Source: Neocallimastix lanati (nom. inval.) (lineage: Eukaryota > Neocallimastigomycota > Neocallimastigomycetes > Neocallimastigales > Neocallimastigaceae). From it: 64,000 nt of DNA. Under the pieces are notes generated by a model. The model was given only the letters and a program-made list of their open reading frames with translations, did no database searches and was not told the DNA's origin. The position numbers and the translations under genes were made by a program. The stretch is taken from assembly GCA_016946835.1 (NCBI GenBank), contig JACVTC010000040.1, positions 968,501 through 1,032,500 on the forward strand, read 5' to 3'. Each line of letters opens with the position of its first letter. Positions within the stretch are counted from its first letter, which is position 1. Shown here piece by piece: positions 18,641 to 51,544 of the stretch.

Positions 18641-18733
18641 AAGAATGAATCAATAAACAATGCTCAGAAAAAAATTAATAATATTAATAATAAATATAAA
18701 GAAAATGACAAAGACGTAAACTTTTTTTAAACA

Positions 18734-20605: not shown

Positions 20606-22171
20606 TTAATTCTTATTTTTATTTTTTTTTGTTTTTTCTTTTTTATTTTTCTTTGTTTTTTCTTTTTTAATTTTTTTATTTTCACTCTCTGTTTCTGTTT
20701 CTGTATCTGTTTCTTTTTCTGTATCTGTTTCTGTATCCTCTGTATTTATATCCTCTGTATATGCGTTCTTCTTATAAGATTTTAAAATGCTCATAATCGC
20801 CTCAAAGTTTGGCTTCTTTTGAAGATCATGATCAAGAAGTCTTGTTTTTGTCGAATCACTAGCGTAGAAGAGATAGCCATCTTGTAATCCAAATACGGTG
20901 ACACTGCCAATATTGTATCCTTCTTCAACATGCTTCATTAATCTTTCAAAGAAATCTCTGTATTGTTCTGCTTGTGCTTCTAACCAATTATCTCCATCTG
21001 GGGCGGTAATAGTTAATTCGGTAATTTGAAGCTCAAGTCCTGTGGTGGCTAATCTTTCGACACCTCTAAAGTATTCATCAAGGGATGGCCAGGTTACTCC
21101 TAAATACGATTGTAATCCAATACCATCAATTAAATCTTCTTTCTGTAAAATTCCGGCTAAATCCATAATGGCTTGTGTCTTATTGTGGGGCCATACTTGG
21201 AATGTATTAAAATCGTTATACACTAATTTCACATTTGGAAGAGCATATTTACGAGCTATACGGAAGGCTTTAATGACGTAATCTGGTCCAAACATATCGT
21301 AATATGGATTAGGGGTATTGTTTAACATGGTACGGGTATACCATCCTGTATTGGCATCATATTGTCCATCAGTGATTTCTATGGCTTCATTGACAACATC
21401 CCATACATCTACTACTCCTGGATAATTAAATTGTACAAAACTAAGATATTGTTTTATATAACTATCTAAACGAGATTCCATAACCTCTGGACTGACTTTT
21501 TTTCCATCGTCAGTATAGCCTTCATTAAAGAACCAATCTGGAGTTTGAGTGTGCCAAATCAAGACATGTCCTCTAATGTGGATACCATTTTTATAAGCAA
21601 ATTCTAATCCATCGACGATACTAGTAAAGTTTAACTTTGGATCTTGAATGCCATTCTTAATATTTTGGATACTTCCTTCCTTATCTAAAATGTAGAGAGG
21701 CTTCATTAAATTGGTGTAGGTCATCGAATTAAATTGATGCTTAATGATATCTCTCATCTTTTCCGAAACGGTTGTGGAAACTTGTAAATTGGTTCCAGTT
21801 AATCCAACACCAAAACGGAAAGGCGCTTCCTTCGCTAAGGAATCCCCTTCCACTAAACTGGTAATATCACAATCCTTCGCAGGATCTATAATACTATCGA
21901 TAATACTGGAATGAAGGGGCTCTGGTGGAACATCTTTGACGGGTCTTGTACTTTTTTTACTGAGACTACACCATTTTCCGTTATCTTCTTGACCCCATTC
22001 ACCATCATATGTGGTACGAACGACTACATCAGTTTTTTTACAACATGGAATTTTAAAAAGACCTTTAGACCAACATTTTCCTTGATTACTTTTATTATTA
22101 TTTTTTGCTGAAACTGCAATGGAAAGACTTCCAATCACCCCTAATAAGGTAATAAAACGATGAATTTTCAT
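20606..22171 (-). CDS. GH10 endo-1,4-beta-xylanase with N-terminal fungal dockerin (521 aa)
   Basis: This enzyme should cut internal beta-1,4 bonds of xylan outside the cell, bound to the cellulosome. Residues 1-22 are a signal peptide (cut near AVSA). Residues 33-68 form one fungal dockerin with CW, CC and WC signatures and the DGEWG core. A short Pro-containing linker follows, and GH10 spans about 105-465. The acid/base is Glu262 in DVWDVVNEA and the nucleophile is Glu385 in LQITELT; the conserved RGHVLIWH and PDWFF segments are present. The C-terminal tail (about 474-521) is unusual: a Thr/Glu/Asp repeat (TDTETETESE) followed by a Lys/Asn block. The gene has no intron, and the start is the only ATG before the signal peptide. 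It is the most diverged of the five xylanases here, so it probably split first. Confidence 0.97.
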   Translation of the reverse strand: MKIHRFITLLGVIGSLSIAVSAKNNNKSNQGKCWSKGLFKIPCCKKTDVVVRTTYDGEWGQEDNGKWCSLSKKSTRPVKDVPPEPLHSSIIDSIIDPAKDCDITSLVEGDSLAKEAPFRFGVGLTGTNLQVSTTVSEKMRDIIKHQFNSMTYTNLMKPLYILDKEGSIQNIKNGIQDPKLNFTSIVDGLEFAYKNGIHIRGHVLIWHTQTPDWFFNEGYTDDGKKVSPEVMESRLDSYIKQYLSFVQFNYPGVVDVWDVVNEAIEITDGQYDANTGWYTRTMLNNTPNPYYDMFGPDYVIKAFRIARKYALPNVKLVYNDFNTFQVWPHNKTQAIMDLAGILQKEDLIDGIGLQSYLGVTWPSLDEYFRGVERLATTGLELQITELTITAPDGDNWLEAQAEQYRDFFERLMKHVEEGYNIGSVTVFGLQDGYLFYASDSTKTRLLDHDLQKKPNFEAIMSILKSYKKNAYTEDINTEDTETDTEKETDTETETESENKKIKKEKTKKNKKEKTKKNKNKN

Positions 22172-22783: not shown

Positions 22784-22999
<216 letters not shown>

Positions 23000-23039
23000 T
23001 ATAATAATAATTATTATATTTTTTTTTTAAATAATTTTT

Positions 23040-23249
23040 AGAGTAAAATAAAATAAATTCTATTTTACTTGTCTTCTAATAATGGTAATAATTTTATATA
23101 TATATATCTCATTTAGATCATTTAATATAAATGAGAAAACGTTTAAATCATAATTAAAGGAATTTTTTTTTTTTTTTATAATATTATTATAATAATATTT
23201 TTTTTAAATAATTTTAGAATAAAATAAACTCTTTTTGAACTGTCTTCCA

Positions 23250-23288
<39 letters not shown>

Positions 23289-24265: not shown

Positions 24266-24307
<42 letters not shown>

Positions 24308-24868: not shown

Positions 24869-24900
<32 letters not shown>

Positions 24901-24967
24901 ATTAATATAATAATATTTTTTTTAAATAATTCTAAAATAAAATAAATTCTTTTTGAACTGTCTTCCA

Positions 24968-25021
<54 letters not shown>

Positions 25022-25071
25022 TTAATAATATTAATAATAATAATAATAATATTAATAATAATAATAATAAT

Positions 25072-25109
<38 letters not shown>

Positions 25110-25505
25110 TTTTTTTTTTTTCGATTTATTAAATCAATTTAAATAATTAGAAAACGTTCAAATCATAATAGAATTTTTTTTTTTTTTTTTTTAAATAATT
25201 TTTAAAATAAAATAAGATAAAAATTCTTTTTGATTGTCTTCCAATAATAATAATCTTATTTTTTAAATAATTTGTAGAACAAAATAAAATAATTTCTTTT
25301 TGAATTGTCTTTTAAAAATAATAATATTATTATTATTTTTTTTTATTTCATTTAAATCAATTTAAATAATAAGAAAATATTTAAATCATAATTTATAAAG
25401 ATTATTATTTTTTTTTTGTAATAATAATAATAATGTTTTTTTTTTTTTTTTTTTTTTTAAATAATTTTTAAAATAAAATAAGATAAATTCTTTTTGAATT
25501 GTCTT
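23040..25505. repeat. Higher-order tandem repeat block
   Basis: Basic units centre on TTCTTTTTGAATTGTCTTCC or its GAACTGTCTTCCAATAATAA variant, separated by AAT runs, T-runs and TTTAAATAATTTT. A large unit starting at GAGTAAAATAAAATAAATTC (23041, 24056, 24745) contains TTCTATTTTACTTGTCTTC, ATGGTAATAATTTTATATA and AAAACGTTTAAATCATAATT. The spacing is about 1015 and then 689 bases, so one copy holds an extra ~330-base sub-unit (23388 and 23721 starts). The 73-codon open frames seen on the minus strand recur with the unit and are not genes. Confidence 0.85.
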
Positions 25506-25621
25506 CTAATACTCGTTAAGGCTGTCCAGCAAGGACATTATCTGCCTATGTTAAAAGCATAACTGAAATGTTTTGACTACCTCAATATTCCCACTGCTCC
25601 TGAGAGGCGGGGCTGAAATCA

Positions 25622-25750
25622 AGGTGCTAGTGTTACAGTATTTGGTATTCAAGATGAATATAGACTCTATATCTTTGGCAGTACTAAGACTTGTCTTTTT
25701 TTAATCATGATCTTCAAAAGAAATCAAATTATTAACTCTTCATGAAAGTT
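25622..25750 (+). pseudogene. GH10 xylanase C-terminal relic
   Basis: The plus strand reads GASVTVFGIQDEYRLYIFGS then TKTC, which matches ANITSVTVFGIQDGYRFYTSDSTKT of the intact genes. After that the frame is lost, although the DNA still resembles the LLDHDLQKKPN part. No catalytic residue is kept. The preceding 110 bases (25508-25620) are unusually GC-rich for this window and match nothing I recognise. The relic sits between the two minus-strand xylanase genes, in opposite orientation. Confidence 0.75.
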
Positions 25751-25759
25751 TTATTATTA

Positions 25760-28088: not shown

Positions 28089-29618
28089 TTAATTATTGGT
28101 TTCTTCTTCTTCATCACTTACATCTTCTACTTCTAATCCATCATCATTAACATCTACATTTTCCTCATCATTGGAATCTTCAGATTCATTTTCTTCAGCA
28201 GCTGTTGTTTCTTCTTCAACTTCTACTGGTTGTTCTGACTTCTTATTGGCTTTTAAAACTTCCATAATGGCTTCGTAATTTGGTTTCTTTTGAAGATCAT
28301 GATCTAAAAGACGAGTCTTAGTACTGTCAGAGGTGTAGAATCTATATCCATCTTGAATACCAAATACAGTAACACTGGTAATATTAGCTCCCTTATTAAT
28401 TTGTTCCATAACTTTTTCAAAGAATTCACGATATTGTTGAGCTTGTTTTTCTAACCAACCTTCTCCATTTGGTGGGGTAATGGTTAATTCGGTAATTTGA
28501 AGTTCTAAACCAGCTTCAGTGAAACGTTCAATGGCTCTAACATATTCTTCAATCTTTGGCCAAGTTTCACCAATATAAGATTGCATACCAAGAGCATCAA
28601 CTAAATTATCTTTTCTTAAAATATTCATAAGATCAATGATAGCTTGAGTTTTATCATGTGGATAGGTTTGGAAAGTATTGTAATCATTGTAAACTAATTT
28701 AACATTTGGAAGAGCGTATTTACGAGCAATTTCAAATGTTTTCTTAACATAATCTGGTCCAACAATCTTATACCATAAACTTTCTTCAGTTTGAGTAGAG
28801 ACTCTGGTATACCATCCAGTAGAGTTATCGAAATATCCATCATTAATTTCAATAGCTTCATTAACAACATCCCAAACATCAATGACACCTGGATAATTGT
28901 GTTGAACAAATCCAAGATATTGACGAATATAACTTTCTAAACGTTGATAGATAGTTTCAACATCAGCAAATTCATTTTCAGAATTGAATCCTTTTCTGAA
29001 GAACCAATCTGGAGTTTGGGTGTGCCATACTAATACATGACCTCTAACGTGAATATTATTCTTTAAAGCAAAATCTAAACCGTCAACAATATCGTCAAAT
29101 TTTAATACGACTTCTTCAGATCCATTTTCAGCGTTTTTGAGACAACCTTCCTTATCAAGAACAAATTCTGGTTTCATAAGATTAGTATAAGTCATAGAGT
29201 TAAATTGATATTTAATGACTTCTCTCATTTTTTTTGAAGTAGTAGTAGAAGTAGAAATGGCTCCACCATTTAAACCAACACCGAAACGGAATGGGGCTTC
29301 TTTTGCTAAAGAATCACCAGTTGTTATATCAGTAATATCACATTCAGCAGCTGGATCATTAATGGAATCAATATCAATGATAGCTGGAGGAGATGGTGGA
29401 ATATCATCCTTTGGTCTAGTACTTTCTAAACCAAGACCACACCATTCACCATTTTCTAAACCCCATTCACCATCATAAGTTGATCTTACAACAGCATCAG
29501 TTGATTTACAACATGGAATATTAAATTTTTCAGACCAACAACCTTTAATGGTTTCAGTTGGTTTAGCACTGACAAAACAAACAGCGGATAAAATACTTAA
29601 AATGGTATTATATTTCAT
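28089..29618 (-). CDS. GH10 endo-1,4-beta-xylanase with N-terminal fungal dockerin and acidic tail (509 aa)
   Basis: A secreted xylan-cutting enzyme for the cellulosome. Residues 1-18 are the signal peptide (ends VSA), and the dockerin spans 27-60 (CWSEKFNIPCCKST, then DGEWG and WCGL). A linker with PPSPPAI near 75-80 follows, then GH10 at about 92-456. The acid/base is Glu254 in VVNEA and the nucleophile is Glu377 in ITELT. RGHVLVWHTQTPDWFF (192-207) is complete. Residues 464-509 form a very acidic tail (EEVEE, DEENVDVNDD, SDEEEE types), unlike the Lys/Ser-rich tails of the 491-residue relatives. There is no intron. The start is the ATG of the same MKYNT N-terminus found in the three genes to the right. 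It is closer to those than to the gene at 20606. Confidence 0.97.
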   Translation of the reverse strand: MKYNTILSILSAVCFVSAKPTETIKGCWSEKFNIPCCKSTDAVVRSTYDGEWGLENGEWCGLGLESTRPKDDIPPSPPAIIDIDSINDPAAECDITDITTGDSLAKEAPFRFGVGLNGGAISTSTTTSKKMREVIKYQFNSMTYTNLMKPEFVLDKEGCLKNAENGSEEVVLKFDDIVDGLDFALKNNIHVRGHVLVWHTQTPDWFFRKGFNSENEFADVETIYQRLESYIRQYLGFVQHNYPGVIDVWDVVNEAIEINDGYFDNSTGWYTRVSTQTEESLWYKIVGPDYVKKTFEIARKYALPNVKLVYNDYNTFQTYPHDKTQAIIDLMNILRKDNLVDALGMQSYIGETWPKIEEYVRAIERFTEAGLELQITELTITPPNGEGWLEKQAQQYREFFEKVMEQINKGANITSVTVFGIQDGYRFYTSDSTKTRLLDHDLQKKPNYEAIMEVLKANKKSEQPVEVEEETTAAEENESEDSNDEENVDVNDDGLEVEDVSDEEEETNN

Positions 29619-34190: not shown

Positions 34191-36490
34191 TTTTATACTT
34201 TCAAAATTAGAATTTGGTAATGTCTTATCATTCGTATTATTCCATAGTAATAGTTCATTGTAAATTATTGTTTTATCAGTATTATTACTATTACTATTAT
34301 TATTATTATTATCACTATTACTTTTACTATTACTATCACAAATACAATTACTGTTACTAACACTATTTATTTATTATTTATTAAAAGTAAATAATAATAT
34401 AAATTTATTAAGATTTATTTTCATATTTTTAATTATTTTAAAATATATTATCAAAGAAATTTAATTTTTAAATAATTTTACATTTTTTTTTTTATTTTTT
34501 TTTTTATTTTTTTAAATTTTATTCTTTATCTTATGTAAAGTTTTTATTCCAAAAATCACAATTATAGTACCAGTTCTTCCATCATCTTTTTTTTTTTTGT
34601 CTTGATATTTTAATTATTTTTTATTAAAAAAAAAAAAAAAAGTTTATAATTATTTATTTATTAATAAATTATTATTAAAATTTCATATTAAATTTTTATT
34701 CCAAAATCCACAATTATTTATTGTCTCCCTCTTTTTTATTTTATTTTATTTTATTTTGATATTATAAATATTTTATATCAAAAAAAAAAAAGTTTTTATT
34801 ATTATTCATAATTCAATGATTTCATTTTCAAAAATTTTCATTATTTCTTTGGATTGTCACACAGTATCATATAAATAAATGTCTTATGGTAATTTCTAAT
34901 GAATATACAGGCATTTTTTTTTTTTTTTTTACAATATCAATACCTTTTATATACAATTTGGAATTATTAGCTAGAAGACATGAGTATTTTTTTTTTTTTG
35001 GACATAATGATCATTCGTGAAAATGTGTTTTTGTAGTTTAGATACCTATATAATTAGTTTTTTTTACATAAATATCAATTGCTTGATTTAAATAATTTCT
35101 TCTCATATCTGTGGGGTACTTTCAGCATCAGGTAAAAAACCTTAGAACAGAGATATCGGTAAATGTAGTTGCTCAAAATTATTAAAATTGGTAAGTGCAT
35201 ACTGCTTTTTATCATATATAATATAATCCGAACCCTGGTCAATTTTAATTAAATTTTTATGACATATACACTCCATTAGTAATATTTTCATTAGACGAGG
35301 TAAAATACCTTCATGATTTTTAGTAAAATATTAAAATTATTGATTTCCAATATCAATGATATGATAAGAATCCGTGGGTATTTATTTCTATATCATTCTT
35401 ATTATTAATTAAAATAGTGTAGCATATGTTGTGAGAAATGATCACACTTGGACACAAGCTGGTAAAATCAAGAATAGTGCAATAGTTGTAAACTCCTTCT
35501 TCCCGGGTTTATGATGGTAGCGTTTTGATAATCATTCGATTTGGTGCAATTCTTTTCTATGCAAAAGTCGCAGTCATAGCAAAATTTATATAGCAGGTTA
35601 GTCCGTTTCTTACTTTAGCCGGACTTATCGACCTCATCAAGGTAGTTTCTGGATGCCTTGGCTACTTTTATCAGTTGGATTCATTGGTTGTTGTTGAAGA
35701 AACATAAAATTGATTTTACCGTATAAAAACATGTTTTTTATATAATCTCTGAAAATACCGTGGAAACATTAAAAAAGGTAGTCGTTTATTGTATTATGGT
35801 TTCAATATTAACCCTCAAACTATTCAACAACTTTTCCGAAACATAATTTAAACTGGATGACATTAAATTTAATGATTTGTCATACTTATATAAGACTTGA
35901 GGAAAAGCTCTAAATACATTCCAATTTTCTGCATCAGATACATATAATCAAAGCTAAATGAATTTTATCCTATAATGAGATCCAGATCATGAATTCTTGT
36001 TTGATTAAGAAATTCACACAACAAACTCATATTCTGTTTCCTTAAATATTATTTGCATATTTTTCATTAAAGGTATTTATTTTTTTTTATAATATTTTCT
36101 TCTTCTTCTTTTTTTTTATTCTATTTCTTAATGTATTCTTCATTTTTTTCATGGTTTTCATAATTATTTTCTCTGCTACTTTTCTTTTCAATATTTATTT
36201 TAATTTGATTTTCTGGACTTGAACTCCTGTCTATCAAATTTCTCAAACTATTATGACTATTTCGATTAGAAAACTCTAAGTTTTTGTTAATTTTCAGAAT
36301 CGACATGAATTTTTCGTATTTAGTACTACCTTTATTCATATGAACATCTTGGCCTTCAAAAGAACTTGATTTATTTACAAATATTATATTGATCCTGATC
36401 AAATCTAATAATCTATTTTTATTGTTATTGTCATCTATACTACATTTGTAATTGTTACCATCATTAACATTATTAGAATATTCTTTTTTT
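34191..36490 (-). pseudogene. Unidentified degenerate coding remnants, possibly of a retroelement
   Basis: The minus strand has three gene-like pieces. At 36470-36121 an Asn/Lys/Ser-rich part includes FMSILKINKNLEFSNRNSHN and SSSPENQIKINIEKK. At about 35960-35450 a better balanced part includes DAENWNVFRAFPQVLYKYDK and SLNYVSEKLLNSL. At 34370-34191 a Ser/Asn linker runs into the poly-Asn array. Asn-rich linkers of this kind also follow the copia integrase fossil at 18.5 kb, so a retroelement origin is possible but not shown. The pieces are broken many times. About 34380-35000 is AT-rich spacer. Confidence 0.3.
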
Positions 36491-37090
36491 AATGTATAAA
36501 GTTATAACTTTATCAAATTTTATTTTTTATTTTTTTTTTTTTTTTTTTTTTTGATTTATTAGTATTATTAATTTTCAATTATTATCATTTCAAGCATTTT
36601 AGTATATAAGAATCCATTAAAATTTTATTATACATAAAATATTAAATATCTAAAAAAAAACATAACATTGTTTTTTGTAATTTTTATTGAATGATTGATT
36701 TAAATTACTTAATATACATTTGATTTTTTTAAATATAAGTTTATAAAAAATATAAGTTTATAAAAAAATATATATTTTTAATTTTTTCACTTTGTTTTTT
36801 TTTTTTTTTTTTTATTTATTTATTTATTTATTTTTAATTAATTTACGAATTAAATATTAACCTTTACATTTAATATTTTATTGATACTACATATTTTAAC
36901 TCTAATATTAAATAATAAATAATTTTTTATTTTTATAAATATTATCTTAAATGAACTAATAAAAAAAAATATAAATCTATGATTACTAGATCTATTGGAA
37001 TAAATAGTTTCATTAAATATTCACATTTTATTTGAATATGTCTTCATTGATTCCATTTCAATGATTACTTTTTTTTAATTTCTTTAATAA
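36491..37090. other. AT-rich spacer and 3' flank of the next xylanase
   Basis: Homopolymer T-runs and a TTTATTTATTTA run near 36815. No gene seen. Confidence 0.5.
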
Positions 37091-37097
37091 ATTAATT

Positions 37098-38480
37098 TTA
37101 ATTTTGGTATTTTTTTAAAACTTTCATAATAGCTTCGTAATTTGGTTTCTTTTGAAGATCATGATCTAATAGACGAGTTTTAGTACTATCAGAGGAATAG
37201 AATCTATATCCATCTTGTAATCCAAAAACTGTTACACTAGAAATATTAGCTCCCTTTTTAATTTGTTCCATGATTCTTTCAAATAATTCTCCATATTGTT
37301 GAGCTTGTTTTTCTAACCAATCATCGCCACTTGGTGCTGTAATGGTTAATTCGGTAATTTGAATTTCTAATCCGGCTTCAGTGAAACGTTCAATGGCTCT
37401 TATATATTCATCAATACTTGGCCAACTCACTCCAATGTATGATTGCATACCAATGGCATCGATTAAATTATCTTTTCTTAAAATATCTATGAGATCAATG
37501 ATGGCTTGAGTTTTATCATGTGGATAAGTTTGGAAAGTATTATAATCATTATATACTAACTTGACATTTGGAAGTGCATATTTACGAGCAATTTCAAATG
37601 TTTTCTTAACATAATCTGGTCCTACTACTTTATACCATAAACTTTCTTCATCTCCTGTCATAGTTCTAGTGTACCATCCTGTAGAATTATCAAAGCTGCC
37701 ATCATTAATTTCAACTGCTTCATTAACAACATCCCAAACATCAATGACTCCTGGATAATTAAATTGAATAAATCCAAGATATTGTTTAATGAAACTTTCT
37801 AAACGATAATAGATTGTATCGACATCGGCAAATTCATTTTCAGAATTAAATCCTTTTCTGAAGAACCAATCTGGAGTTTGTTTATGCCAAACTAATACAT
37901 GACCTCTAATATGAATATTATTCTTTAAAGCAAAATCTAAACCATCCACAATATCATCAAATTTTAAAGCCATTTCTTCTGAACCATTTTCTGCATTTTT
38001 GAGACATCCTTCTTTATCAAAAATATATTCAGGTTTCATGATATTAGTATAAGTCATTGAATTAAATTGATATTTAATGACTTCTCTCATTGTTTTAGAA
38101 GTAGTAGTAGAAGTAGAAAGAGCACCACCATTTAAACCAACACCGAAACGGAAAGGAGCTTCTTTTGCTAAAGAATCACCAGTAGTTATATCAGTGATAT
38201 TACATTCCGCAGCAGGATCATTGATAGAATCAATATCAATGATAGCAGGAGGAGAAGGAGGAATATCATCTTTTGGTCTTGTACTTTCTAAACCAAGACC
38301 ACACCATTCACCATTTTCCATTCCCCATTCACCATCATAAGTTGATCTTACGACAGTTTTAGTTGATTTACAACAAGGAATATTAAATCTTTCAGACCAA
38401 CATCCATCAATATTTTCAGCTGGTTTAGCAGCTACTATAGAAACAACTGATAATATACTCAATAATGTATTATATTTCAT
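37098..38480 (-). CDS. GH10 endo-1,4-beta-xylanase with N-terminal fungal dockerin, no C-terminal tail (460 aa)
   Basis: A secreted, cellulosome-bound xylanase. The signal peptide is 1-18 (ends VAA) and the dockerin is 27-60 (CWSERFNIPCCKST, DGEWG, WCGL). GH10 spans about 92-456, with acid/base Glu254 (VVNEA) and nucleophile Glu377 (ITELT). It ends at KVLKKYQN right after the catalytic domain, whereas its relatives carry 30-50 extra residues. The middle of the gene is almost identical to the genes at 41931 and 46567, on the opposite strand, while the first ~31 residues and the last few differ clearly. At several positions (Asp176, Gly276-Asp277, Ser414) it agrees with the gene at 46567 and not with the one at 41931. 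There is no intron. Confidence 0.97.
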   Translation of the reverse strand: MKYNTLLSILSVVSIVAAKPAENIDGCWSERFNIPCCKSTKTVVRSTYDGEWGMENGEWCGLGLESTRPKDDIPPSPPAIIDIDSINDPAAECNITDITTGDSLAKEAPFRFGVGLNGGALSTSTTTSKTMREVIKYQFNSMTYTNIMKPEYIFDKEGCLKNAENGSEEMALKFDDIVDGLDFALKNNIHIRGHVLVWHKQTPDWFFRKGFNSENEFADVDTIYYRLESFIKQYLGFIQFNYPGVIDVWDVVNEAVEINDGSFDNSTGWYTRTMTGDEESLWYKVVGPDYVKKTFEIARKYALPNVKLVYNDYNTFQTYPHDKTQAIIDLIDILRKDNLIDAIGMQSYIGVSWPSIDEYIRAIERFTEAGLEIQITELTITAPSGDDWLEKQAQQYGELFERIMEQIKKGANISSVTVFGLQDGYRFYSSDSTKTRLLDHDLQKKPNYEAIMKVLKKYQN

Positions 38481-38586
38481 CTTAACTATTAACTATGTAA
38501 TTAAATTTTTATAAATTAAATATTTTAATATCTAAATTTTTAAAATAAATTAAAACAATAATAACTGTAAAAAAGAAATTTTCACC

Positions 38587-38601
38587 TTTTTTATATTTTT
38601 T
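38587..38601 (-). promoter_or_regulatory. TATA-box-like element upstream of the xylanase at 38480
   Basis: On the minus strand AAAAATATAAAAAAGGTGAA lies about 110 bases before the ATG, at the same distance as the TATA-like words of the two plus-strand copies. Confidence 0.35.
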
Positions 38602-38609
38602 TAGAAACT

Positions 38610-39575
38610 TAATATTTAAATAGAATCTTTATTAAATTTATATTAATAATATTATATTTATAGTGACAATCCATTTAAAATAATCCTTTTTATTAAATAA
38701 TTTAATATTATTATTTAAAATTCTTACTATTAATAGGATTTATTATTAATTAAAAAAATTTTTTATTGATAAATGAAAAAAAAAAAAAAAAAAAACTTAC
38801 AATATATCCTTGATTTCAATGAAACAATGAAAACCGTTTAACTTTAATTCTATTTAATTTTTATAATATTATTAATAAAAATACCAATAAAAAAAATTTT
38901 TTTATTAATAAATAATATATATTACTAATTAAATCTATTAAAACAGAACTATTGGTTTTTCCTTTATATCTAAAAAAATTAAAAAATTAAAATTAATATA
39001 TAAAATAGAATAAAAATAAAATTAATATATTTTTTATTATTATTTTTTTTTTAAAAAAAAAAAATAATTAAGATTAATAAATAAAATAGGATAAAAATAT
39101 AATTAATACATTATTTTATTATTGTTATTTTATTTTGATGGTGTATTTTCTATTTATTTATATAATTTTAAAGTTTATTGAAATACAGAAAAAGAAATAA
39201 ATTAAAATTGATATAAATATAACGGATTAAAATAATATAATAGACAGAATTAGGGGTTATATTAAATTTTAGTACTAAATTCAAAAAACTAAAAAAACTA
39301 TTAACATGTTCTATATTAATTTAAATAATCAAAATCATTATTGTTTTTTTTATATAAAATACAAAAAATTATTACATATATGTATATTACATAAATATAT
39401 TTAAATGTTAAAAAATAATAATTAATAATTTTTTTTAAAAAAAAAATTAAACCATTTTTATATTTTATTATTTAATTATTATTATTATTTTTTTTTTCAT
39501 AATTTTTATTTTTATTTAATTTTAAAAAAAATAGAATAAAATTTTAATTTAATTTAGCACCTATGTTATAATATA
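38610..39575. other. AT-rich spacer
   Basis: AT-rich filler with A- and T-runs; nothing recognised. Confidence 0.5.
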
Positions 39576-39578
39576 CTT

Positions 39579-39645
39579 AAGAATAAATTGAATATTATAA
39601 TAGAAAATAAGGAATATTTTCTATTATAATATTCAATTTATTCTT
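39579..39645. repeat. Perfect 31-bp inverted repeat with 5-base loop
   Basis: Arms 39579-39609 and 39615-39645 are exact reverse complements around AGGAA. The left arm starts AAGAATAAATTGAATATTAT. It ends exactly where homology to the xylanase 3' flank (inverted) begins. Confidence 0.93.
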
Positions 39646-39649
39646 TTAA

Positions 39650-39850
39650 TTTTAACAAAAATTATTTTTTTATATTTTTAATTAATTAATTATAAATGTA
39701 TATATTATAAAAAAAAATTATTTTAAATTATTAAATTTTTAACAGGATTATTTAGCATTATTAATTTGTTTTTTCTTCACTTGAAATTTCTTATTCTTAT
39801 TCTGAATCTTTATCTTTATAGTTTTTCTATATCGTCAATTTTTTTTTTGT
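39650..39850 (-). pseudogene. Inverted relic of a GH10 gene 3' end and flank
   Basis: Read on the minus strand, 39845-39755 matches the last ~30 codons of the 491-residue xylanases: an AAAATTGACGATATAGAAAA start, GATTCAGAATAAGAATAAG, then TTCAAGTGAAGAAAAAAC. The match continues through TTAATAATG past the stop and into the 3' flank (AAATAATCCTGTT, then TTTATAATTAATTAA). The Glu/Ser tail frame is broken. The catalytic part is absent: upstream of the tail the sequence turns into unrelated AT-rich DNA. Confidence 0.75.
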
Positions 39851-39854
39851 AAAT

Positions 39855-40635
39855 TTTACATTATAATAAATGATATAATTAATTCAATTAAACAATGTAA
39901 AAATAAAATAAAAAAATTATTGATCAATGAATTTGAAAATTGTTTATAAATCTTTGTATATTTTTTATTTCTAATAGAAAAAAAAAATTAAATATAATAT
40001 GTTCCAAGAATTTATTATTTTAATTTATATATTCTTATTTTCTTATTAAAGAAAAAAATTTTTTTTTTAAAAAAAAAAAAAAAAGAGAAAAATAAAAATT
40101 AATATTATTAATAAAATTATTATTATTATTATTATTATTATTTGTTTAACTTTGATATTATTTTATTTTTTTTTATAAAAAATGTTGACACTCCCCTCTC
40201 AAACTAGTTTTTATTTATATACTCTTATATATTGTTAATTATATTAACAAATATTTTTATTATTTAAAAACATCCTCATTTATTGTTAGAACTCCTTATT
40301 ATATTATAATGGCCATAAAATAAAAATTCCGAATAATTAATTATTTTTTATAACATTAAATAAATAATATTACTTTTTATAATATTGATCGTTTTAAAAT
40401 GATTTAATAATAATAGTAAAATTTTTTTTACAATAAATAAGGATTGTTATACAAAATCTTTTAATTTTTTAAATATTAATAATATTAATTTTAATAATAG
40501 TTTTATATATATTTAGTATTTAGTTTTATATAAAATTAAAAGGAATGAATAAAAATATTTAACCCTTTCATGGTTTTTAATTTACTTATTGATTAAAATT
40601 TAAAATTTATATTCGATGTTGAAAAGCAAAATATT

Positions 40636-40675
<40 letters not shown>

Positions 40676-41490
40676 AAAAAATAAAAAATTATTTAAATAT
40701 TCATAGTTTTAAATTTTTCATTAATATTTAAATAAATTTTTATTTTTTAAAGTTTATATAGAATTTAAAAATATAATATATCAAAATTAATATTTTAAAC
40801 GAATTATAAAAAAAAGAAAATATATTTACAATTTACATTATTATATAATATTAACATATTTATTAGTCTTCATTATTACCAATAATTTTAAAAATAATAA
40901 AAACACAATGTTACATGTATTATTTTTTAATTATTATTATTATTAGATAAAAAAAATTGTTAAAACTTTATTAATTATATTAATGAATATTACTATAAAA
41001 TTTTTATGATATTAATTTAAATTTTTTGGTTAAATTTATTAAATTTTTGTTCCCCTTAATATTATATGTAACAATTAAAATATCCACACTTTATTTATAA
41101 AATTTAAAAATCATTTATATATTTACTAATGAAAAGAAACAAGTTTTAAATTTAATAATAAATTTTTTTTAACTATATTTTTATCATTAAATATTTATTA
41201 ATGAATATAATAAAATTTTTTTTCATAATTTTAAAAACAAAAGATTATTATATAATTTTAAAAATAAATGATAGTTTACTTTAGATCTAATTCAAATATC
41301 ATAAATTCAATAAAGTATATATTTTTAATAATTATTAATAATTATTATTATCTTCATGTAAATAATTTTTTTTTTTTTTTTTTTTTTTTTTATAAATTCT
41401 AAAATATAATAATAAGTTTTAAATGATTGGTGTTTTTTTAATAAATCCATACAAATTAAAATAAATATTTGATTTTATTTCTATTCTTTT

Positions 41491-41523
<33 letters not shown>

Positions 41524-41820
41524 TTTTTAATTTATATATATTATTTTCTTTAAAACATTTTATATAGATTTTTTTATATTATGGAATTTTTAAATAAATA
41601 TATTTAAAGTTCAATAAAAAAATTAATTTATTTATTATTCAAAAATAATATTACAGAGTTTTTTTTCCTATTTTTTTTTTTTTTATTTTTTCCTATTGTT
41701 GGAAAATAACTATTATGAAACTTATTGTTATATTAAATTTTAAAAATCAATATTTTTTTTTATTTTAGAAAAATTTAACCGAAAATAACAATTTAATATT
41801 TTTAAAAGTAAATTATATTT
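39855..41820. repeat. 5' flank of the first plus-strand xylanase, left copy of a large direct duplication
   Basis: From about 39980 (AATATAATATGTTCCAAGAA) this stretch is paralogous to 45190-46566, with shared words such as CTTTTGTTCCCCTTAATATT-type, CACAATGTTACATGTA and a long A-run preceded by TTATTTAA. The copies differ by many insertions and deletions. It holds no gene. Confidence 0.65.
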
Positions 41821-41827
41821 TTAAAAA

Positions 41828-41840
41828 TATATATAAAAGG
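41828..41840 (+). promoter_or_regulatory. TATA-box-like element upstream of the xylanase at 41931
   Basis: TATATATAAAAGG lies 91 bases before the ATG and is followed by AAAGGTTTTTCCATTTTT. The same block is kept in front of the paralog at 46567, although the farther upstream DNA has diverged. Confidence 0.45.
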
Positions 41841-41930
41841 AAAGGTTTTTCCATTTTTAATTCTTTACAAAAATTCAGAATATTTCTATTCAAAAAATAA
41901 AAGTAAATATTATATATATTAATCATCAAA

Positions 41931-43406
41931 ATGAAATATAATACATTATTAAGTATATTATCAGTTGTTTCTTTAGTAGTTGCTAAACCAACTAAAAATA
42001 TTAAAAGTTGCTGGTCAAAGAAATTTAATATTCCTTGTTGTAAATCAACTAAAACTGTCGTAAGATCAACTTATGATGGTGAATGGGGAATGGAAAATGG
42101 TGAATGGTGTGGTCTTGGTTTAAAAAGTACAAGACCAAAAGATGATATTCCTCCTTCTCCTCCTGCTATCATTGATATTGATTCTATCAATGATCCTGCT
42201 GCGGAATGTAATATCACTGATATAACTACTGGTGATTCTTTAGCAAAAGAAGCTCCATTCCGTTTCGGTGTTGGTTTAAATGGTGGTGCTCTTTCTACTT
42301 CTACTACTACTTCTAAAACAATGAGAGAAGTCATTAAATATCAATTTAATTCAATGACTTATACTAATATCATGAAACCTGAATATATTTTCGATAAAGA
42401 AGGATGTCTCAAAAATGCAGAAAATGGTTCAGAAGAAATGGCTTTAAAATTTGATGGTATTGTGGATGGTTTAGATTTTGCTTTAAAGAATAATATTCAT
42501 ATTAGAGGTCATGTATTAGTTTGGCATAAACAAACTCCAGATTGGTTCTTCAGAAAAGGATTTAATTCTGAAAATGAATTTGCCGATGTCGATACGATCT
42601 ATTATCGTTTAGAAAGTTTCATTAAACAATATCTTGGATTTATTCAATTTAATTATCCAGGAGTCATTGATGTTTGGGATGTTGTTAATGAAGCAGTTGA
42701 AATTAATGATGGCAGCTTTGATAATTCTACAGGATGGTACACTAGAACTATGACAGAAAATGAAGAAAGTTTATGGTATAAAGTAGTAGGACCAGATTAT
42801 GTTAAGAAAACATTTGAAATTGCTCGTAAATATGCACTTCCAAATGTCAAGTTAGTATATAATGATTATAATACTTTCCAAACTTATCCACATGATAAAA
42901 CTCAAGCCATCATTGATCTCATAGATATTTTAAGAAAAGATAATTTAATCGATGCCATTGGTATGCAATCATATATTGGAGTGAGTTGGCCAAGTGTTGA
43001 TGAATATATAAGAGCCATTGAACGTTTCACTGAAGCCGGATTAGAAATTCAAATTACCGAATTAACCATTACAGCACCAAGTGGCGATGATTGGTTAGAA
43101 AAACAAGCTCAACAATATGGAGAATTATTTGAAAGAATCATGGAACAAATTAAAAAGGGAGCTAATATTACTAGTGTAACAGTCTTTGGATTACAAGATG
43201 GATATAGATTCTATTCCTCTGATAGTACTAAAACTCGTCTTTTAGATCATGATCTTCAAAAGAAACCAAATTACGAAGCTATTATGAAAGTTTTAAAATC
43301 AAATAAAAAAGAGAATCAAAAAATTGATGATAAAGAAAAACAAAATTCAAAAAATAAAAATTCAGAATCAGAATCAGAAAGTTCAAGTGAAGAAGAAAAA
43401 AATTAA
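41931..43406 (+). CDS. GH10 endo-1,4-beta-xylanase with N-terminal fungal dockerin (491 aa, copy 1)
   Basis: A secreted, cellulosome-bound xylanase. The signal peptide is 1-18 (ends VVA). The dockerin is 27-60, with Cys at 27, 36, 37 and 60 and the DGEWG core at 49-53. A PPSPPAI linker follows, with GH10 at 92-456. The acid/base is Glu254, the nucleophile Glu377, and RGHVLVWHKQTPDWFF spans 192-207. The tail 457-491 is Lys/Asn- then Ser/Glu-rich (SESESESSSEEEKN). I count seven residue differences from the gene at 46567: positions 41, 176, 276, 277, 414, 478 and 486. Position 176 is Gly here and Asp in the other three MKYNT-type enzymes. There is no intron. The start has AAA just before ATG, as in the paralogs. 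Confidence 0.97.
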   Translation: MKYNTLLSILSVVSLVVAKPTKNIKSCWSKKFNIPCCKSTKTVVRSTYDGEWGMENGEWCGLGLKSTRPKDDIPPSPPAIIDIDSINDPAAECNITDITTGDSLAKEAPFRFGVGLNGGALSTSTTTSKTMREVIKYQFNSMTYTNIMKPEYIFDKEGCLKNAENGSEEMALKFDGIVDGLDFALKNNIHIRGHVLVWHKQTPDWFFRKGFNSENEFADVDTIYYRLESFIKQYLGFIQFNYPGVIDVWDVVNEAVEINDGSFDNSTGWYTRTMTENEESLWYKVVGPDYVKKTFEIARKYALPNVKLVYNDYNTFQTYPHDKTQAIIDLIDILRKDNLIDAIGMQSYIGVSWPSVDEYIRAIERFTEAGLEIQITELTITAPSGDDWLEKQAQQYGELFERIMEQIKKGANITSVTVFGLQDGYRFYSSDSTKTRLLDHDLQKKPNYEAIMKVLKSNKKENQKIDDKEKQNSKNKNSESESESSSEEEKN

Positions 43407-43698
43407 TAATGTTAAATAACCCAATTGAAAATTAAATAATTTAAAAAGAAATTTTTTTTAAAAAATTTAAATTTATAATTAATTAAAAATATTAAAAAAA
43501 TTATTTTAAATTAGAATGTTAGTTTCAAAATTAAGTGTTTTAAATTTAACTTTCTTTTTTTGTAATATCTATTATTAATCAAATTAAGAAAATTAATAAA
43601 TAGAACTTTTATTAAATTGAATAAAATATTCAAAAAATATATTATTTTTAAATTTATAAAAATAATTATAAAATAATAAATTTAAGTTATTACTTATA

Positions 43699-43700
<2 letters not shown>
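43407..43700. repeat. 3' flank, left copy of the direct duplication
   Basis: From the stop codon to about 43690 this is nearly identical to 48043-48325 (TTAAATAACCCAATTGAAAA, GAATGTTAGTTTCAAAAT, AATAGAACTTTTATTAAATT). The two copies then part company at an A-run. Confidence 0.85.
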
Positions 43701-43740
<40 letters not shown>

Positions 43741-43789
43741 TTATTATTTTTTTTTTTATAAAAAATTTAATTAAGAAAATTTCATATAA

Positions 43790-45000
43790 ATTTTTTTAAT
43801 TTTTTTTGGCTTTTTATTTTTTTATAATTTCAAAATTTTATAATGAAAAAAATTAACATTTTAATATTTTCCAACTAAAAACTATTCCATTACTATTTAA
43901 TATCATTCCAACATCATAATATATTATGTATATTTTCCATAAATTTATTAAAAGATTACATATTTTTTTTAAAAATTAATTAATAGAATCATGTATAATA
44001 CACTTTATTATAAAAGCTGATGAGAAATTAATAATTTTAAATTAAAAAAAAAAAAAAAAAAAAAAACGCTTCTAACATTTTCTTTTATAAAAGAAATTAA
44101 TCCAAAAAATTTAATATATGTTATTATTTTTTTTAGTTTTTTTTTATAATTTCAAAATTTTACAATGAAAAGAATTAATATTTTAATAATTTTCAACTTA
44201 GAGGAATTATATAAATTTATTGAATTTTATTTTAATATATATTCATTTCAAATACTTTATCATAATTCAATAATTTTATAATTAAGCAAAATAAAAAAAA
44301 CTTTTGTTATTATTTTTTGAAATTCATCCATATTTATATATCATTTTTTTGTTGTAAATTTAAACATATAATTAATATAATTCAATTAATATGATTAAAT
44401 GATATAAAAATAATTATGATTATTAACCATAAATTTATTAAAAAGCTACATATTTTTTCAAGAAAAATTAATAATTAAAACTATGCTTATTTCACTTTGA
44501 TAAAATTTGATGGGAATTTTAAATTGTTAAAAAAAAAATCATTGCTAATTTTTTTTTTTTTTATATATAAAAAAATTAATCCAAAAAATTTTATATAAAA
44601 TGTTATTATTGTTTGGGGTTTTTTTTTAATAATTTCAAAATTTTACAATAAAAAAAAAATTAACATTTTAATATTTTCTAACTAAATACCATTTCATTAC
44701 TATTTAATATCATTCCAACATCATAATATATTATGTGTATTTTCCATAAATTTATTAAATATTTACATATTTTTTTTAAAAAAATTAATTAATAAATAAT
44801 AGAATATTATACTTTGTTATAAAAGCTGATGTAAATAATTATTTTTGAATAAAAAGAAAATAAATTTTAATTTTTAAGATTATTAATCATAAATTTATTT
44901 ACTAATTATTTTTTTTTTAAGAACAATAATCAATAAAACTAGGTTTATTTTATATTTCATTCAATTTTTATAAATATATTTTTAGATACAACATTAACAC
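43790..45000. repeat. About 800-bp tandem repeat between the two xylanase copies
   Basis: A block with CAAAATTTTATAATGAAAA, TTAACATTTTAATATTTTC, TCATTCCAACATCATAATAT and TATTTTCCATAAATTTATTA at 43826-44035 recurs at 44634-44830. The part around 44300-44490 recurs at 49025-49208. A third piece of the first block lies at 50217-50290, on the far side of the element with inverted ends. No gene is in it. Confidence 0.7.
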
Positions 45001-45007
45001 ATAGAAA

Positions 45008-45066
<59 letters not shown>
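45008..45066. repeat. ATT array of ~19 units
   Basis: A pure ATT run with no coding context. Confidence 0.9.
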
Positions 45067-45069
<3 letters not shown>

Positions 45070-45189
45070 TAAAATGTGGAAAATTAAAAACTCCTTAATA
45101 TCCAAAAAAAATATATATATATATATATATTATTAACAATACCTAAGGATTAAATTAAAATATAAAATTTATGTTTTTTTTTTCTAATA

Positions 45190-45664
45190 AAATAAAAATA
45201 TATATATATAATATGTTCCAAGAATTAATTATTTTTATTTATATTTTTTTTTTATTTAAAAATAACCTTATATATTGTTAAAACTCCTTATTATATATTA
45301 AGGGCAATAAAATAAAATTTCCAAATAGTTAAATTTTTTTTTATTAAATAATATTATATAGTAACATATTTTTAATTGATATTATATAAAAGTAATATAT
45401 ATTAGTTTTATATAATATCGATTGTTTTAAAATAACTTAATAATAATAGTAAAAAATATTTTTATAATAAATAAAGATTTTTATATATAATCTTTAATTT
45501 TTTTTTTTGATATATAAATAATAATTATGATTAATAATAGTTTTATATATTTAGTGTTGTATAAAATTAATAGGAATAAATATATTTTGCTTGTCTTTAA
45601 ATGGTTTTTAATTTACTTAATTAAAAATTAAAAATTTATATTCTATGTAGAAAAGAAAAATACT

Positions 45665-45706
<42 letters not shown>

Positions 45707-46466
45707 AAAAAAGTTTAAAAAATATAAAATTACCTAAATATTCATAAAAAAAATTAAAATTAAAGTTTAAATAGAACTTAGAAATATATATATAAATCAA
45801 AATTAATATTTTAAACGAATAAGAAAAAAAATAAAATATATTTACAATCTATATTTTTCTATAATATTAAAATGTTGATTTGTCCTCATTGCTACCAATA
45901 TATTCAAAAATAATAAAAGCACAATGTTACATGTAGTTTAATCAAAATGTTTATTTATAATTATATTATTACTATTGAAAGATAAAAAAAATTGTTAAAA
46001 CTTTATTAATTATATTAATGAATATTACCATAAAATTTTTATGATATTAATTTAAATTCTTTGTTTAAATTTATTTAACTTTTGTTCCCCTTAATATTGT
46101 ATGTATAACAATTAAAATATCCATATTATAAAATTTATATTATTTTATTTAAAACATTTTATATAGATTTTAAATAATATAAACCAAGCAAATATTAAAA
46201 AATAAAATTTATCGATTTTGTCATTTTATTATGGAATTTTTAAATAAATATTCAATAAAATAATTTATTTATTTATTTTTTCAGATTAATATTATAATTT
46301 TTTTTTTTTCATTCATTTTTTTTTATCCTATTGCTGGAAAATATAACTTAATATATTAAATTTTAAAATTTAATATTTTTTTTTAATATATATATATTTA
46401 TATTTGAAAAATTTAGCCGAAAGTAATAATTTAATATTTTTAGAAATAAATTACATTTAAAAAAAA
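45190..46466. repeat. 5' flank of the second plus-strand xylanase, right copy of the direct duplication
   Basis: Paralogous to about 39980-41827. It starts at a shared ATATAATATGTTCCAAGAA word. It is shorter than the left copy because of insertions and deletions. No gene seen. Confidence 0.65.
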
Positions 46467-46476
46467 TATATAAAAG
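46467..46476 (+). promoter_or_regulatory. TATA-box-like element upstream of the xylanase at 46567
   Basis: TATATAAAAG lies 91-100 bases before the ATG and is followed by TAAAGGTTTTTCCATTTTTT, as in the paralog. Confidence 0.45.
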
Positions 46477-46566
46477 TAAAGGTTTTTCCATTTTTTATTT
46501 ATTATAAAAATTCAAAATATTTCAATTTAAAAAAAAAAGTATATTTTATATATATTTATCATCAAA

Positions 46567-48042
46567 ATGAAATATAATACATTATTAAGTATATTATCAG
46601 TTGTTTCTTTAGTAGTTGCTAAACCAACTAAAAATATTAAAAGTTGTTGGTCAAAGAAATTTAATATTCCTTGTTGTAAATCAACTAATACTGTCGTAAG
46701 ATCAACTTATGATGGTGAATGGGGAATGGAAAATGGTGAATGGTGTGGTCTTGGTTTAAAAAGTACAAGACCAAAGGATGATATTCCTCCTTCTCCTCCT
46801 GCTATCATTGATATTGATTCTATCAATGATCCTGCTGCGGAATGTAATATCACTGATATAACTACTGGTGATTCTTTAGCAAAAGAAGCTCCATTCCGTT
46901 TCGGTGTTGGTTTAAATGGTGGTGCTCTTTCTACTTCTACTACTACTTCTAAAACAATGAGAGAAGTCATTAAATATCAATTTAATTCAATGACTTATAC
47001 TAATATCATGAAACCTGAATATATTTTTGATAAAGAAGGATGTCTCAAAAATGCAGAAAATGGTTCAGAAGAAATGGCTTTAAAATTTGATGATATTGTG
47101 GATGGTTTAGATTTTGCTTTAAAGAATAATATTCATATTAGAGGTCATGTATTAGTTTGGCATAAACAAACTCCAGATTGGTTCTTCAGAAAAGGATTTA
47201 ATTCTGAAAATGAATTTGCCGATGTCGATACGATCTATTATCGTTTAGAAAGTTTCATTAAACAATATCTTGGATTTATTCAATTTAATTATCCAGGAGT
47301 CATTGATGTTTGGGATGTTGTTAATGAAGCAGTTGAAATTAATGATGGCAGCTTTGATAATTCTACAGGATGGTACACTAGAACTATGACAGGAGATGAA
47401 GAAAGTTTATGGTATAAAGTAGTAGGACCAGATTATGTTAAGAAAACATTTGAAATTGCTCGTAAATATGCACTTCCAAATGTCAAGTTAGTATATAATG
47501 ATTATAATACTTTCCAAACTTATCCACATGATAAAACTCAAGCCATCATTGATCTCATAGATATTTTAAGAAAAGATAATTTAATCGACGCCATTGGTAT
47601 GCAATCATATATTGGAGTGAGTTGGCCAAGTGTTGATGAATATATAAGAGCCATTGAACGTTTCACTGAAGCCGGATTAGAAATTCAAATTACCGAATTA
47701 ACCATTACAGCACCAAGTGGCGATGATTGGTTAGAAAAACAAGCTCAACAATATGGAGAATTATTTGAAAGAATCATGGAACAAATTAAAAAGGGAGCTA
47801 ATATTTCTAGTGTAACAGTTTTTGGATTACAAGATGGATATAGATTCTATTCCTCTGATAGTACTAAAACTCGTCTTTTAGATCATGATCTTCAAAAGAA
47901 ACCAAATTACGAAGCTATTATGAAAGTTTTAAAATCAAATAAAAAAGAGAATCAAAAAATTGATGATAAAGAAAAACAAAATTCTAAAAATAAAAATACA
48001 GAATCCGAATCAGAAAGTTCAACTGAAGAAGAAAAAAATTAA
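46567..48042 (+). CDS. GH10 endo-1,4-beta-xylanase with N-terminal fungal dockerin (491 aa, copy 2)
   Basis: Same layout as copy 1: signal peptide 1-18, dockerin 27-60, PPSPPAI linker, GH10 92-456, acid/base Glu254, nucleophile Glu377, and a Lys/Asn then Ser/Glu tail 457-491. It differs from copy 1 at only seven residues and from the minus-strand gene at 37098 mainly at the two ends. At 176, 276-277 and 414 it shares the residues of the 37098 gene rather than those of its tandem neighbour. That is not what a simple tandem duplication predicts. It has no intron, the full catalytic set is present, and nothing suggests loss of function. Confidence 0.97.
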   Translation: MKYNTLLSILSVVSLVVAKPTKNIKSCWSKKFNIPCCKSTNTVVRSTYDGEWGMENGEWCGLGLKSTRPKDDIPPSPPAIIDIDSINDPAAECNITDITTGDSLAKEAPFRFGVGLNGGALSTSTTTSKTMREVIKYQFNSMTYTNIMKPEYIFDKEGCLKNAENGSEEMALKFDDIVDGLDFALKNNIHIRGHVLVWHKQTPDWFFRKGFNSENEFADVDTIYYRLESFIKQYLGFIQFNYPGVIDVWDVVNEAVEINDGSFDNSTGWYTRTMTGDEESLWYKVVGPDYVKKTFEIARKYALPNVKLVYNDYNTFQTYPHDKTQAIIDLIDILRKDNLIDAIGMQSYIGVSWPSVDEYIRAIERFTEAGLEIQITELTITAPSGDDWLEKQAQQYGELFERIMEQIKKGANISSVTVFGLQDGYRFYSSDSTKTRLLDHDLQKKPNYEAIMKVLKSNKKENQKIDDKEKQNSKNKNTESESESSTEEEKN

Positions 48043-49208
48043 TAATGTTAAATAACCCAATTGAAAATTAAATAATTTAAAAAGAAAAATTTTTTTTAAA
48101 AATTTAAATTTATAATTAATTAAAAATATAAAAAATTATTTTAAATTAGAATGTTAGTTTCAAAATCTAGTGTTTTAAATTAAACTTTCTTTTTTTGTAA
48201 TATCTATTATTAATCAAATCAAGAAAATTAATAAATAGAACTTTTATTAAATTGAATAAAATATTCAAAAAATATATTATTTTTAAATTTATAAAAATAA
48301 TTATAAAATAAATTTAAGTTATTAGTTATATAATTTAAAAAAAAAAAAAATAGATAATAATTAAAATTATTAAAAAAAAAAATAGATAATAATTAAAAAA
48401 AAAAAAAAAAAAAAATAGATAATAATTAAAAAAAAAAAAAAAATAAATAATAATTAAAATAATTAAAAAAAAAAATAGATAATATTATATAAATCATAAA
48501 AATAAATAAATAAATAAATAATAAAATTAAAAATAAAATTTCATCTATTAATAATTATTTTACTTAATATTAATAAACTTCACTAAATATTTCAATATCA
48601 TATATCGTATTAAATAAATAATAAATATTAATATTTATTTTAAAGTTTATAATATTTTTTATAAATATATAGTTTATAAATCAAATCATTATAAATTAAA
48701 ATTCGATTATTACATATATTTACATTGTTAAACTTTTAAAAGTCAAAGAAAATACCATCAAATTGTAATATTTAAATACTATATGATAATAACCAATATA
48801 AAATATAAAATTTATCAAAAAGTTTATGTATATTATAAAATAAATTGTATCATTAAATTATTTTATTTTATAAATTTCATAATAAAAAGTAAAGTTTTAA
48901 AGTACCATTAATACTTTATTGCTTTACTTTTTTTTTTTTTTAATGCCTACTAAATAATTAATCCTTTAAAGAAAAAAAAAATTTTTTTAAAAAGAAAAAA
49001 AATATTTATACTAAAATAAGTTATATAAATTTATTATATTGATATTTTTTGAAATTCATTTAATTTTATAATAATTTTTGTTGTAATTTTCAACTTGTAA
49101 TATAAGAATTTAATTAATGTTATATTTGAATGAAATAAAAATAATTATGATTATTAAATTTATTAAAATGTTTTATATTTTTTCAAGAAAAATTAATAAT
49201 TAAAATTA
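48043..49208. repeat. 3' flank (right duplication copy) and AT-rich spacer
   Basis: 48043-48325 copies 43407-43690. Then come several units of TAGATAATAATTAAAA with A-runs (48350-48480) and AT-rich filler. 49025-49208 copies part of the 44.3-44.5 kb repeat. Confidence 0.7.
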
Positions 49209-50836: not shown

Positions 50837-51544
50837 TTAATTAAGTGGTGCATCATACGAAATCCAATCATAAAAAGCACTAATATTAGTGCTTCCATTG
50901 AAAGGTTCAAGCCAGTCATCTACACCGATACCGTTCCATGCATTCATCATAATTTTACCTGGAGTATTTGGAATATTATCGTAGGCAGTGTAGACTTCTC
51001 TACCATCTACATACCAAGTAATATGATTTCCATCCCAAAAGAAACCATAGGTATGGAAACCTTGAGAAGCATCGAATCCAAGATAATGAATATGTTCATG
51101 ATGTCCGACACCATTGGTGTAATAGTTAAATTGAACTTTGGTGGTATCATAACCAAGGAATTCAATATCAATTTCATCCCATTTAGTACCATCACTTGGA
51201 CCAGTATAAGTGAAGAAAGAGGAAACTACACCAGGATTCTTAATGGGTTTCATATTGACTTGAAACATACCAAAGCCATAATATTTTTTAGTACGATATT
51301 CACCACAAGTATATCCAGACCAATCACTATTAATAGTAATCTTTAATTTTCCATCTTCAAAACTGTTATTATTTGGTGTGAAAGCACAGTTAAACATATC
51401 ACCATTGGACCAATTTGCCATGTCAAATATACTTGAATCATGGTAATTAAAGTCCATACTTTCATGATTACCATTCCAAGCGGGAGCAGCCAAGGTTATC
51501 GACAATCCTAAGGCTAATAATACAATAGATAAGATATTTTTCAT
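50837..51544 (-). CDS. GH16 licheninase (1,3-1,4-beta-glucanase), secreted, no dockerin (235 aa)
   Basis: Cuts mixed-linkage beta-glucan (lichenan, cereal beta-glucan) outside the cell. Residues 1-20 are a signal peptide (LGLSITLAA). The mature part is a single GH16 jelly-roll domain of the bacterial-lichenase type. The active-site segment WDEIDIEF lies at 122-129, with nucleophile Glu124, Asp126 and acid/base Glu128. Cys53 and Cys80 match the conserved disulfide of Bacillus lichenases. [10 protein letters not shown] (138-147), [19 protein letters not shown] and MMNAWNG are other family hallmarks. Length and layout fit single-domain lichenases of gut fungi, which are thought to come from bacteria by transfer. 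No dockerin or carbohydrate-binding module is present, so it is probably a free enzyme. It has no intron. It lies next to the xylanase cluster, converging on the gene at 46567. Confidence 0.97.

Follow-up and report, generated by a model that had tools for sequence, protein, structure and literature searches.

The coding cores of three neighbouring GH10 xylanase genes, one of them (A) inverted relative to the other two (B and C), have probably been homogenised by repeated ectopic recombination between paralogs, most likely through non-reciprocal gene conversion during repair. In both the A-C and the B-C comparison, a tract was found that is far more alike than the homologous sequence adjoining it (A-C, 9/1275 differing bases within the tract vs 13/93 beside it; B-C, 18/1740 vs 105/1029). 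These tracts are also young at unconstrained sites, as seen from the contrast in synonymous divergence (Ks), from a synonymous comparison with the paralog D (p 0.022), and from noncoding differences between B and C (4/264 vs 105/1029). Young cores lie between older ends and flanks.

The genes were identified in a window of 64,000 nucleotides from the Neocallimastix lanati genome (C335:968501-1032500, on a contig of 1.34 Mb), the whole stretch of DNA analyzed here. The assembly is AT-rich and comprises 199,045,447 bases in 762 contigs, and the GC content of the window is low (7-27% per 2 kb). For three published Neocallimastix assemblies, sizes of 187-201 Mb and a GC content of about 18% are reported (PMC12341934).

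A, B, and C are open, intact ORFs, and the preliminary description had given their coordinates and arrangement correctly, with B and C in tandem and A inverted (Table 1). All three matched the Pfam profiles of GH10 (PF00331; 230-231 bits, curated cut-off 22.1) and of CBM_10/fungal dockerin (PF02013; 35.6, 37.1, and 36.4 bits in A, B, and C, curated cut-off 23), and by this family match their CBM_10 domains are predicted to be of the dockerin type. The WDVVNE and ITEL motifs, which we take to be catalytic, were present in each gene. The closest solved relatives by sequence were bacterial-type GH10 entries, such as 2w5f. Additionally, GH10-like relic pieces were observed in the window at 18729-19098 and 25627-25753.

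Table 1. Xylanase genes, tracts, and flanks in the window (positions count from the first base of the window).
Feature	Position	Strand	Remarks
Gene A, GH10 xylanase + CBM_10, inverted copy	37098..38480	-	ORF of 460 aa
Gene B, GH10 xylanase + CBM_10	41931..43406	+	ORF of 491 aa
Gene C, GH10 xylanase + CBM_10	46567..48042	+	ORF of 491 aa
Gene D, GH10 paralog, outgroup	28089..29618	-	core Ks 0.42-0.44 to A, B, and C
Gene E, GH10 paralog, more distant	20606..22171	-	core Ks ~1.05-1.11 to A-D
Young tract in gene A (CDS nt 93-1366), near-identical to B and C	37115..38388	-	from a two-rate change-point fit
Apparently old 5' end of the A CDS (codons 1-31)	38389..38480	-	13/93 bases differ from C, mostly in codons 15-31
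Young B/C island, B side	41922..43676	+	from 9 bases before the start codon to ~270 past the stop
Young B/C island, C side	46558..48311	+	partner of the B-side island
B upstream flank, homologous to that of C, diverged	40235..41921	+	
C upstream flank, homologous to that of B, diverged	45225..46557	+	
B far downstream flank	44311..44483	+	80% like 49043-49208
C far downstream flank	49043..49208	+	partner of 44311-44483

The contrast between the 5' end of A (codons 1-31) and its core (codons 32-456) was strong in the comparison with C (Fisher p 9e-11), and A and B differed at 14 bases in the end and 12 in the core. As previously described, the core is near-identical in all three genes, B and C also differing at 9 of 1275 bases, while A departs from both at eight residues of codons 1-31 and in a different, shorter tail. 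A comparison of synonymous divergence between core and ends, proposed in the preliminary description as a check, revealed non-uniform divergence of A from B and C, with a Ks of 0.19-0.26 in the end (0.19 for A-C) vs 0.022 in the core. For A-C this corresponds to 3.5 synonymous differences at 20.4 sites vs 6 at 274 (Fisher p 0.0025, with the counts rounded to 4/20 and 6/274). In the best two-rate split, the young tract spans nt 93-1366 for A-B and A-C alike, with 9 differences to C and 12 to B inside it, and none of 1000 permutations gave an A-C change-point statistic as strong. The end-to-core odds ratio of difference from C was 22.9 for A and 1.76 for D (p 1.1e-6 for all sites, 0.022 for synonymous sites only), which ruled out that the ends of A are simply fast-evolving. 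At synonymous sites, the core of A is about 20 times younger relative to B and C than its split from D (0.022 vs 0.42-0.44).

A, B/C, and D are equally far from one another in codons 15-31 (11-13 of 51 bases), and at the 13 sites of codons 1-31 where A stands against B and C, the base of D is found in A five times and in B/C seven times; the 5' end of A therefore seems to date from around the split from D. This old coding end measures only 93 bases, of which codons 1-14 differ from B/C at a single base in 42, a near-identity that one tract boundary would not explain. Toward the 3' end, A aligns with D by blastn as far as codon 456, and A lacks the extended tail common to B, C, D and, less clearly, E, so the tract probably ends there with the homology itself. 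The match of the B/C tail to D, and still more to E, depends in part on low-complexity sequence and disappeared under hard masking.

A query of 117 bases around the old 5' end of A (6 upstream and 111 coding), used to search for a donor, matched only A, C, B, and D at E<=1. The 300 bp upstream of A showed no similarity to B, C, D, or E above 60 shuffles, and the 300 bp downstream showed none to B, C, or D; the A-E comparison at 300 bp downstream exceeded all 60 shuffles (z 3.2). Over 1200 bp downstream, A-B (z 7.0) and A-E (z 8.4) were above the shuffles, similarities that may reflect low-complexity repeats. The blastn alignment of A to B and C extends about 75 bases above the start codon of A. 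However, when 80 upstream bases were compared with 300 random noncoding windows, 88 windows aligned as well for A-B, 16 for A-C, and 2 for A-D, which makes homology of A to B/C in these ~75-80 bases doubtful.

B and C form an older tandem unit that carries a young island, which opens 9 bases upstream of the start codon and closes ~270 past the stop. The indel-rich upstream flanks noted in the preliminary description were confirmed: over 1.5 kb, the 105 substitutions (~10%) were accompanied by 40 gap events. Within the coding sequence, differences numbered 1/93 in codons 1-31, 9/1275 in the core, and 4/108 in the tail, and the figure of 18/1740 given above combines these with the 270 bp downstream flank. 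Because the noncoding sequences upstream and downstream differ strongly in rate (Fisher p 3e-7), noncoding status as such is not the cause of the upstream divergence. Farther downstream, the top non-self match of 44311-44483 among the scored genome candidates was the collinear segment 49043-49208 (80%, 150 bits; next match, 72 bits).

A GENECONV-like test, run with our own script rather than the GENECONV program and with 5000 trials per pair, gave a divided answer to the conversion test that had been proposed earlier. With all variable sites and mismatches allowed, no trial of 5000 matched the observation for A-B or for A-C. The longest exact run was significant for A-C (49/5000) but not for A-B (806/5000), and with silent sites only, neither A-B (352/5000) nor A-C (1265/5000) was significant. 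No mosaic was found by this test within the coding sequences of B and C, where their differences are unclustered.

The preliminary description had argued from a patchwork of residues. There are indeed exactly seven residue differences between B and C (41, 176, 276, 277, 414, 478, and 486), and C agrees with A rather than B at 176, 276, 277, and 414. Any variable site in a set of three sequences is a singleton; a few residues shared by C and A therefore do not make a patchwork on their own, and an outgroup is needed. When core sites were polarised with D, the informative sites were divided into two supporting AB, three AC, and two BC. A tree uniting B and C in every segment had been named as evidence against conversion; the maximum-likelihood tree of the core joins A and C, yet B+C was not rejected (AU p 0.20; 0.12 for A+B). 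In simulations under a codon model on the clonal B+C tree, at least five conflicting sites arose in 89 of 1000 runs and at least three AC sites in 212 of 1000. The conflict among A, B, and C in the core is compatible with homoplasy, and codons 41, 176, 276, 277, and 414 are variable among other paralogs too. The residue patchwork is thus unfit as proof of conversion, although the observation itself stands.

On the conversion reading, the exchange between A and the inverted B/C genes would have covered codons 32-456, reaching on its 3' side to the end of common homology and stopping on its 5' side near codon 31, so that A would have retained its flanks together with an older end encoding the signal peptide. 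In the tandem pair, the tract would begin shortly ahead of the start codon and end ~270 bp beyond the stop, within the older duplicated unit. The core has a GC content of 31% and the two spacers measured have 10-11%; coding DNA may accordingly offer the main stable homology between the genes. Spacers lose alignment through indels, and tracts may thereby be confined to coding sequence. That the process was conversion rather than crossover is a step that we infer, as any direction of transfer would be. Conversion is the best explanation of the Ks contrast, the D contrast, and the B/C island. The earlier statement that conversion between inverted paralogs explains all of the pattern was too strong, as the short tail of A reflects lost homology rather than a converted segment, and part of the homogenisation concerns the tandem B/C pair.

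Crossover could leave the same mosaic if an A-B inversion or an unequal B-C exchange had moved whole flanks. The tests used here come out alike for crossover and conversion, and in the GH11 array on C113, treated below, the pairing of the upstream flanks does not match that of the downstream flanks, a pattern expected from inversions between inverted copies. Diverged homology of B to C nevertheless continues on either side of the island, which is easier to reconcile with a patch than with one exchange, and we regard crossover as unlikely. A core kept slow by strong constraint or low mutation, without recombination, would be in line with the conserved nature of GH10 catalytic cores as proteins, but the same core has a Ks of 0.42-0.44 between D and A/B/C and of 1.05-1.11 to E, which leaves this account almost no credence.

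A might also be a young, truncated, inverted copy of a B/C gene, broken at codon 456 into unrelated DNA, with codons 15-31 evolving fast under selection or local mutation. The end of homology at that codon, the dissimilar 300 bp upstream flank, and the single difference in codons 1-14 all agree with such an origin. A fast young copy should, however, be farther from D than B/C in codons 15-31, and A is not (12 vs 11-12 of 51); together with the five of 13 sites at which A carries the base of D and the synonymous excess in the end, this renders a truncated copy very improbable. Duplicated or merged haplotypes could mimic near-identical genes through misassembly. Against such an artefact, all copies lie on the single 1.34 Mb contig, no match longer than 230 bases in the genome exceeds 73% identity apart from A-D, and the flanks of B and C are 10% different with indels besides, so that the chance of an artefact is slight.

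We also surveyed other xylanase arrays in the genome. For GH10, 30 loci were fetched of 93 genome matches, and one of the four other close same-contig pairs (L008/L012, L014/L015, L019/L020, and L021/L023) proved to be a clear intragenic mosaic. This pair, L021/L023 on C468, had synonymous differences at 8/190 in codons 1-300 vs 64/189 in codons 301-601 (Fisher p 1.7e-14). The genome contained 127 GH11 matches, including six genes of alternating orientation on C113, of which four (g1-g4) were compared in their flanks. Their coding sequences differed by 4-13 substitutions in ~1 kb. The upstream flanks paired g1 with g4 (8/287) and g2 with g3 (4/296), with 25-29 differences of 274-278 in the other four pairs, while the downstream flanks paired g1 with g2 (17/259) and g3 with g4 (18/294), with 29-35 of 269-275 in the others. 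Since these pairings conflict, exchange between inverted GH11 copies, by inversion or conversion, is suggested. All four closest flank pairings join opposite orientations, but so do four of the six possible pairs. The pair g2/g3 is also the closest in coding sequence, so flank and coding histories are not wholly uncoupled. Eight GH11 copies on C146 (28 pairs) differed at 7-18 of 552 positions in the coding domain and at 8-20% upstream, with 6-22 gaps; this flank contrast was set aside because alignments with at least 15 gaps per 300 bp approach the level of unrelated AT-rich DNA here.

More broadly, coding-limited concerted evolution might operate across the genome, although we put this forward only tentatively. 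Coding islands would lie amid fast-decaying spacers of ~10% GC, and neighbouring paralogs, inverted ones included, would keep homogenising the catalytic regions of xylanases across many arrays, with divergence left to signal peptides, linkers, tails, and promoters; enzyme dosage would stay high as regulation and attachment vary. Should cores be overwritten in this way, trees built from near-identical CAZyme copies would be misleading as to orthology and the dating of duplications, and the number of near-identical xylanases may show that dosage is maintained, not that duplication was recent. Exchange between inverted copies could be measured in the alternating GH11 arrays of this genome.

The enzymes themselves are ordinary, as A, B, and C resemble other GH10 xylanases with fungal CBM_10/dockerin-type domains in combining GH10 and CBM_10. 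We found no report of gene conversion or concerted evolution in anaerobic fungi or xylanases among the openly licensed PMC papers searched, which yielded papers on other subjects, such as Plasmodium and Ganoderma. Similar patterns have been described elsewhere. In the HMA4 cluster of Arabidopsis halleri, recurrent ectopic gene conversion is reported among the coding sequences of tandem copies whose promoter regions have separate histories (PMC3749932), as here; that work covered many individuals, whereas ours concerns one genome, one inverted copy, and a fungal-type enzyme cluster. The beta-tubulin paralogs of Leishmania likewise are reported to have concerted coding regions and noncoding regions distinct to each locus (PMC1533823), but they lie on separate chromosomes and were compared between species, unlike our neighbours within 11 kb in one species. 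In Aspergillus, a comparison of two species describes recursive ectopic conversion between nearby paralogs, again in a fungus, tied to gene splitting and loss (PMC12844118), in contrast to the three intact ORFs here. Taken together, these comparisons place the xylanase genes as a likely new example, with an inverted copy, of a known mechanism, ectopic conversion.

Parts of the sequences flanking two of the near-identical GH10 xylanase genes in the window are similar to other sequences in the assembly. Partial copies of the stretch downstream of gene A (window 36300-36736) were found with 81% identity on contigs C27 and C257 and with approximately 73% on several contigs. Upstream of gene B, about 440 bases (window 41090-41540) are missing at the corresponding place beside gene C, and parts of this segment showed 69-83% similarity to dispersed sequences. 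In addition, long imperfect repeats occupy about 3 kb (window 22454-25511) between the further GH10 paralogs E and D, and the window contained GH10-like relic pieces and a GH16 gene adjoining the cluster.

GH10, GH11 and GH16 features in the window and elsewhere in the assembly
Feature	Location	Strand or orientation	Remark
GH10-like relic piece	window 18729-19098	+	79% to A/B/C vs 73% to D
GH10-like relic piece	window 25627-25753	+	nearer to D, 84%
GH16 gene adjoining GH10 cluster	window 50837-51544	-	
GH11 array (L061, L062)	C113:105240-123050	alternating or mirrored	domain scores near-equal
GH11 array	C15:620768-629921	alternating or mirrored	domain scores near-equal
GH11 array	C17:16317-32667	alternating or mirrored	domain scores near-equal
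L038, inverted GH11 copy of C146 array	C146:73280-73831	-	

Other contigs of the assembly harbored various GH11 genes and domain matches. The inverted copy L038 carried an early in-frame TAA within the signal-peptide region, where the other copies of the C146 array had no stop. Several consecutive GH11 domains within one open frame were identified on C554, C58, C743, C64, C566, and C750, including a frame of 1869 amino acids with six GH11 domains (C554:363523-368088). Also, GH11 matches occurred at an identical position near the contig start in C457 and C711 (1709-2263 in both), and these might perhaps represent contig ends in a common repeat or subtelomere. Among the arrays in alternating or mirrored orientation, the pairing of genes by upstream flank differed from that by downstream flank for four of the six genes on C113.
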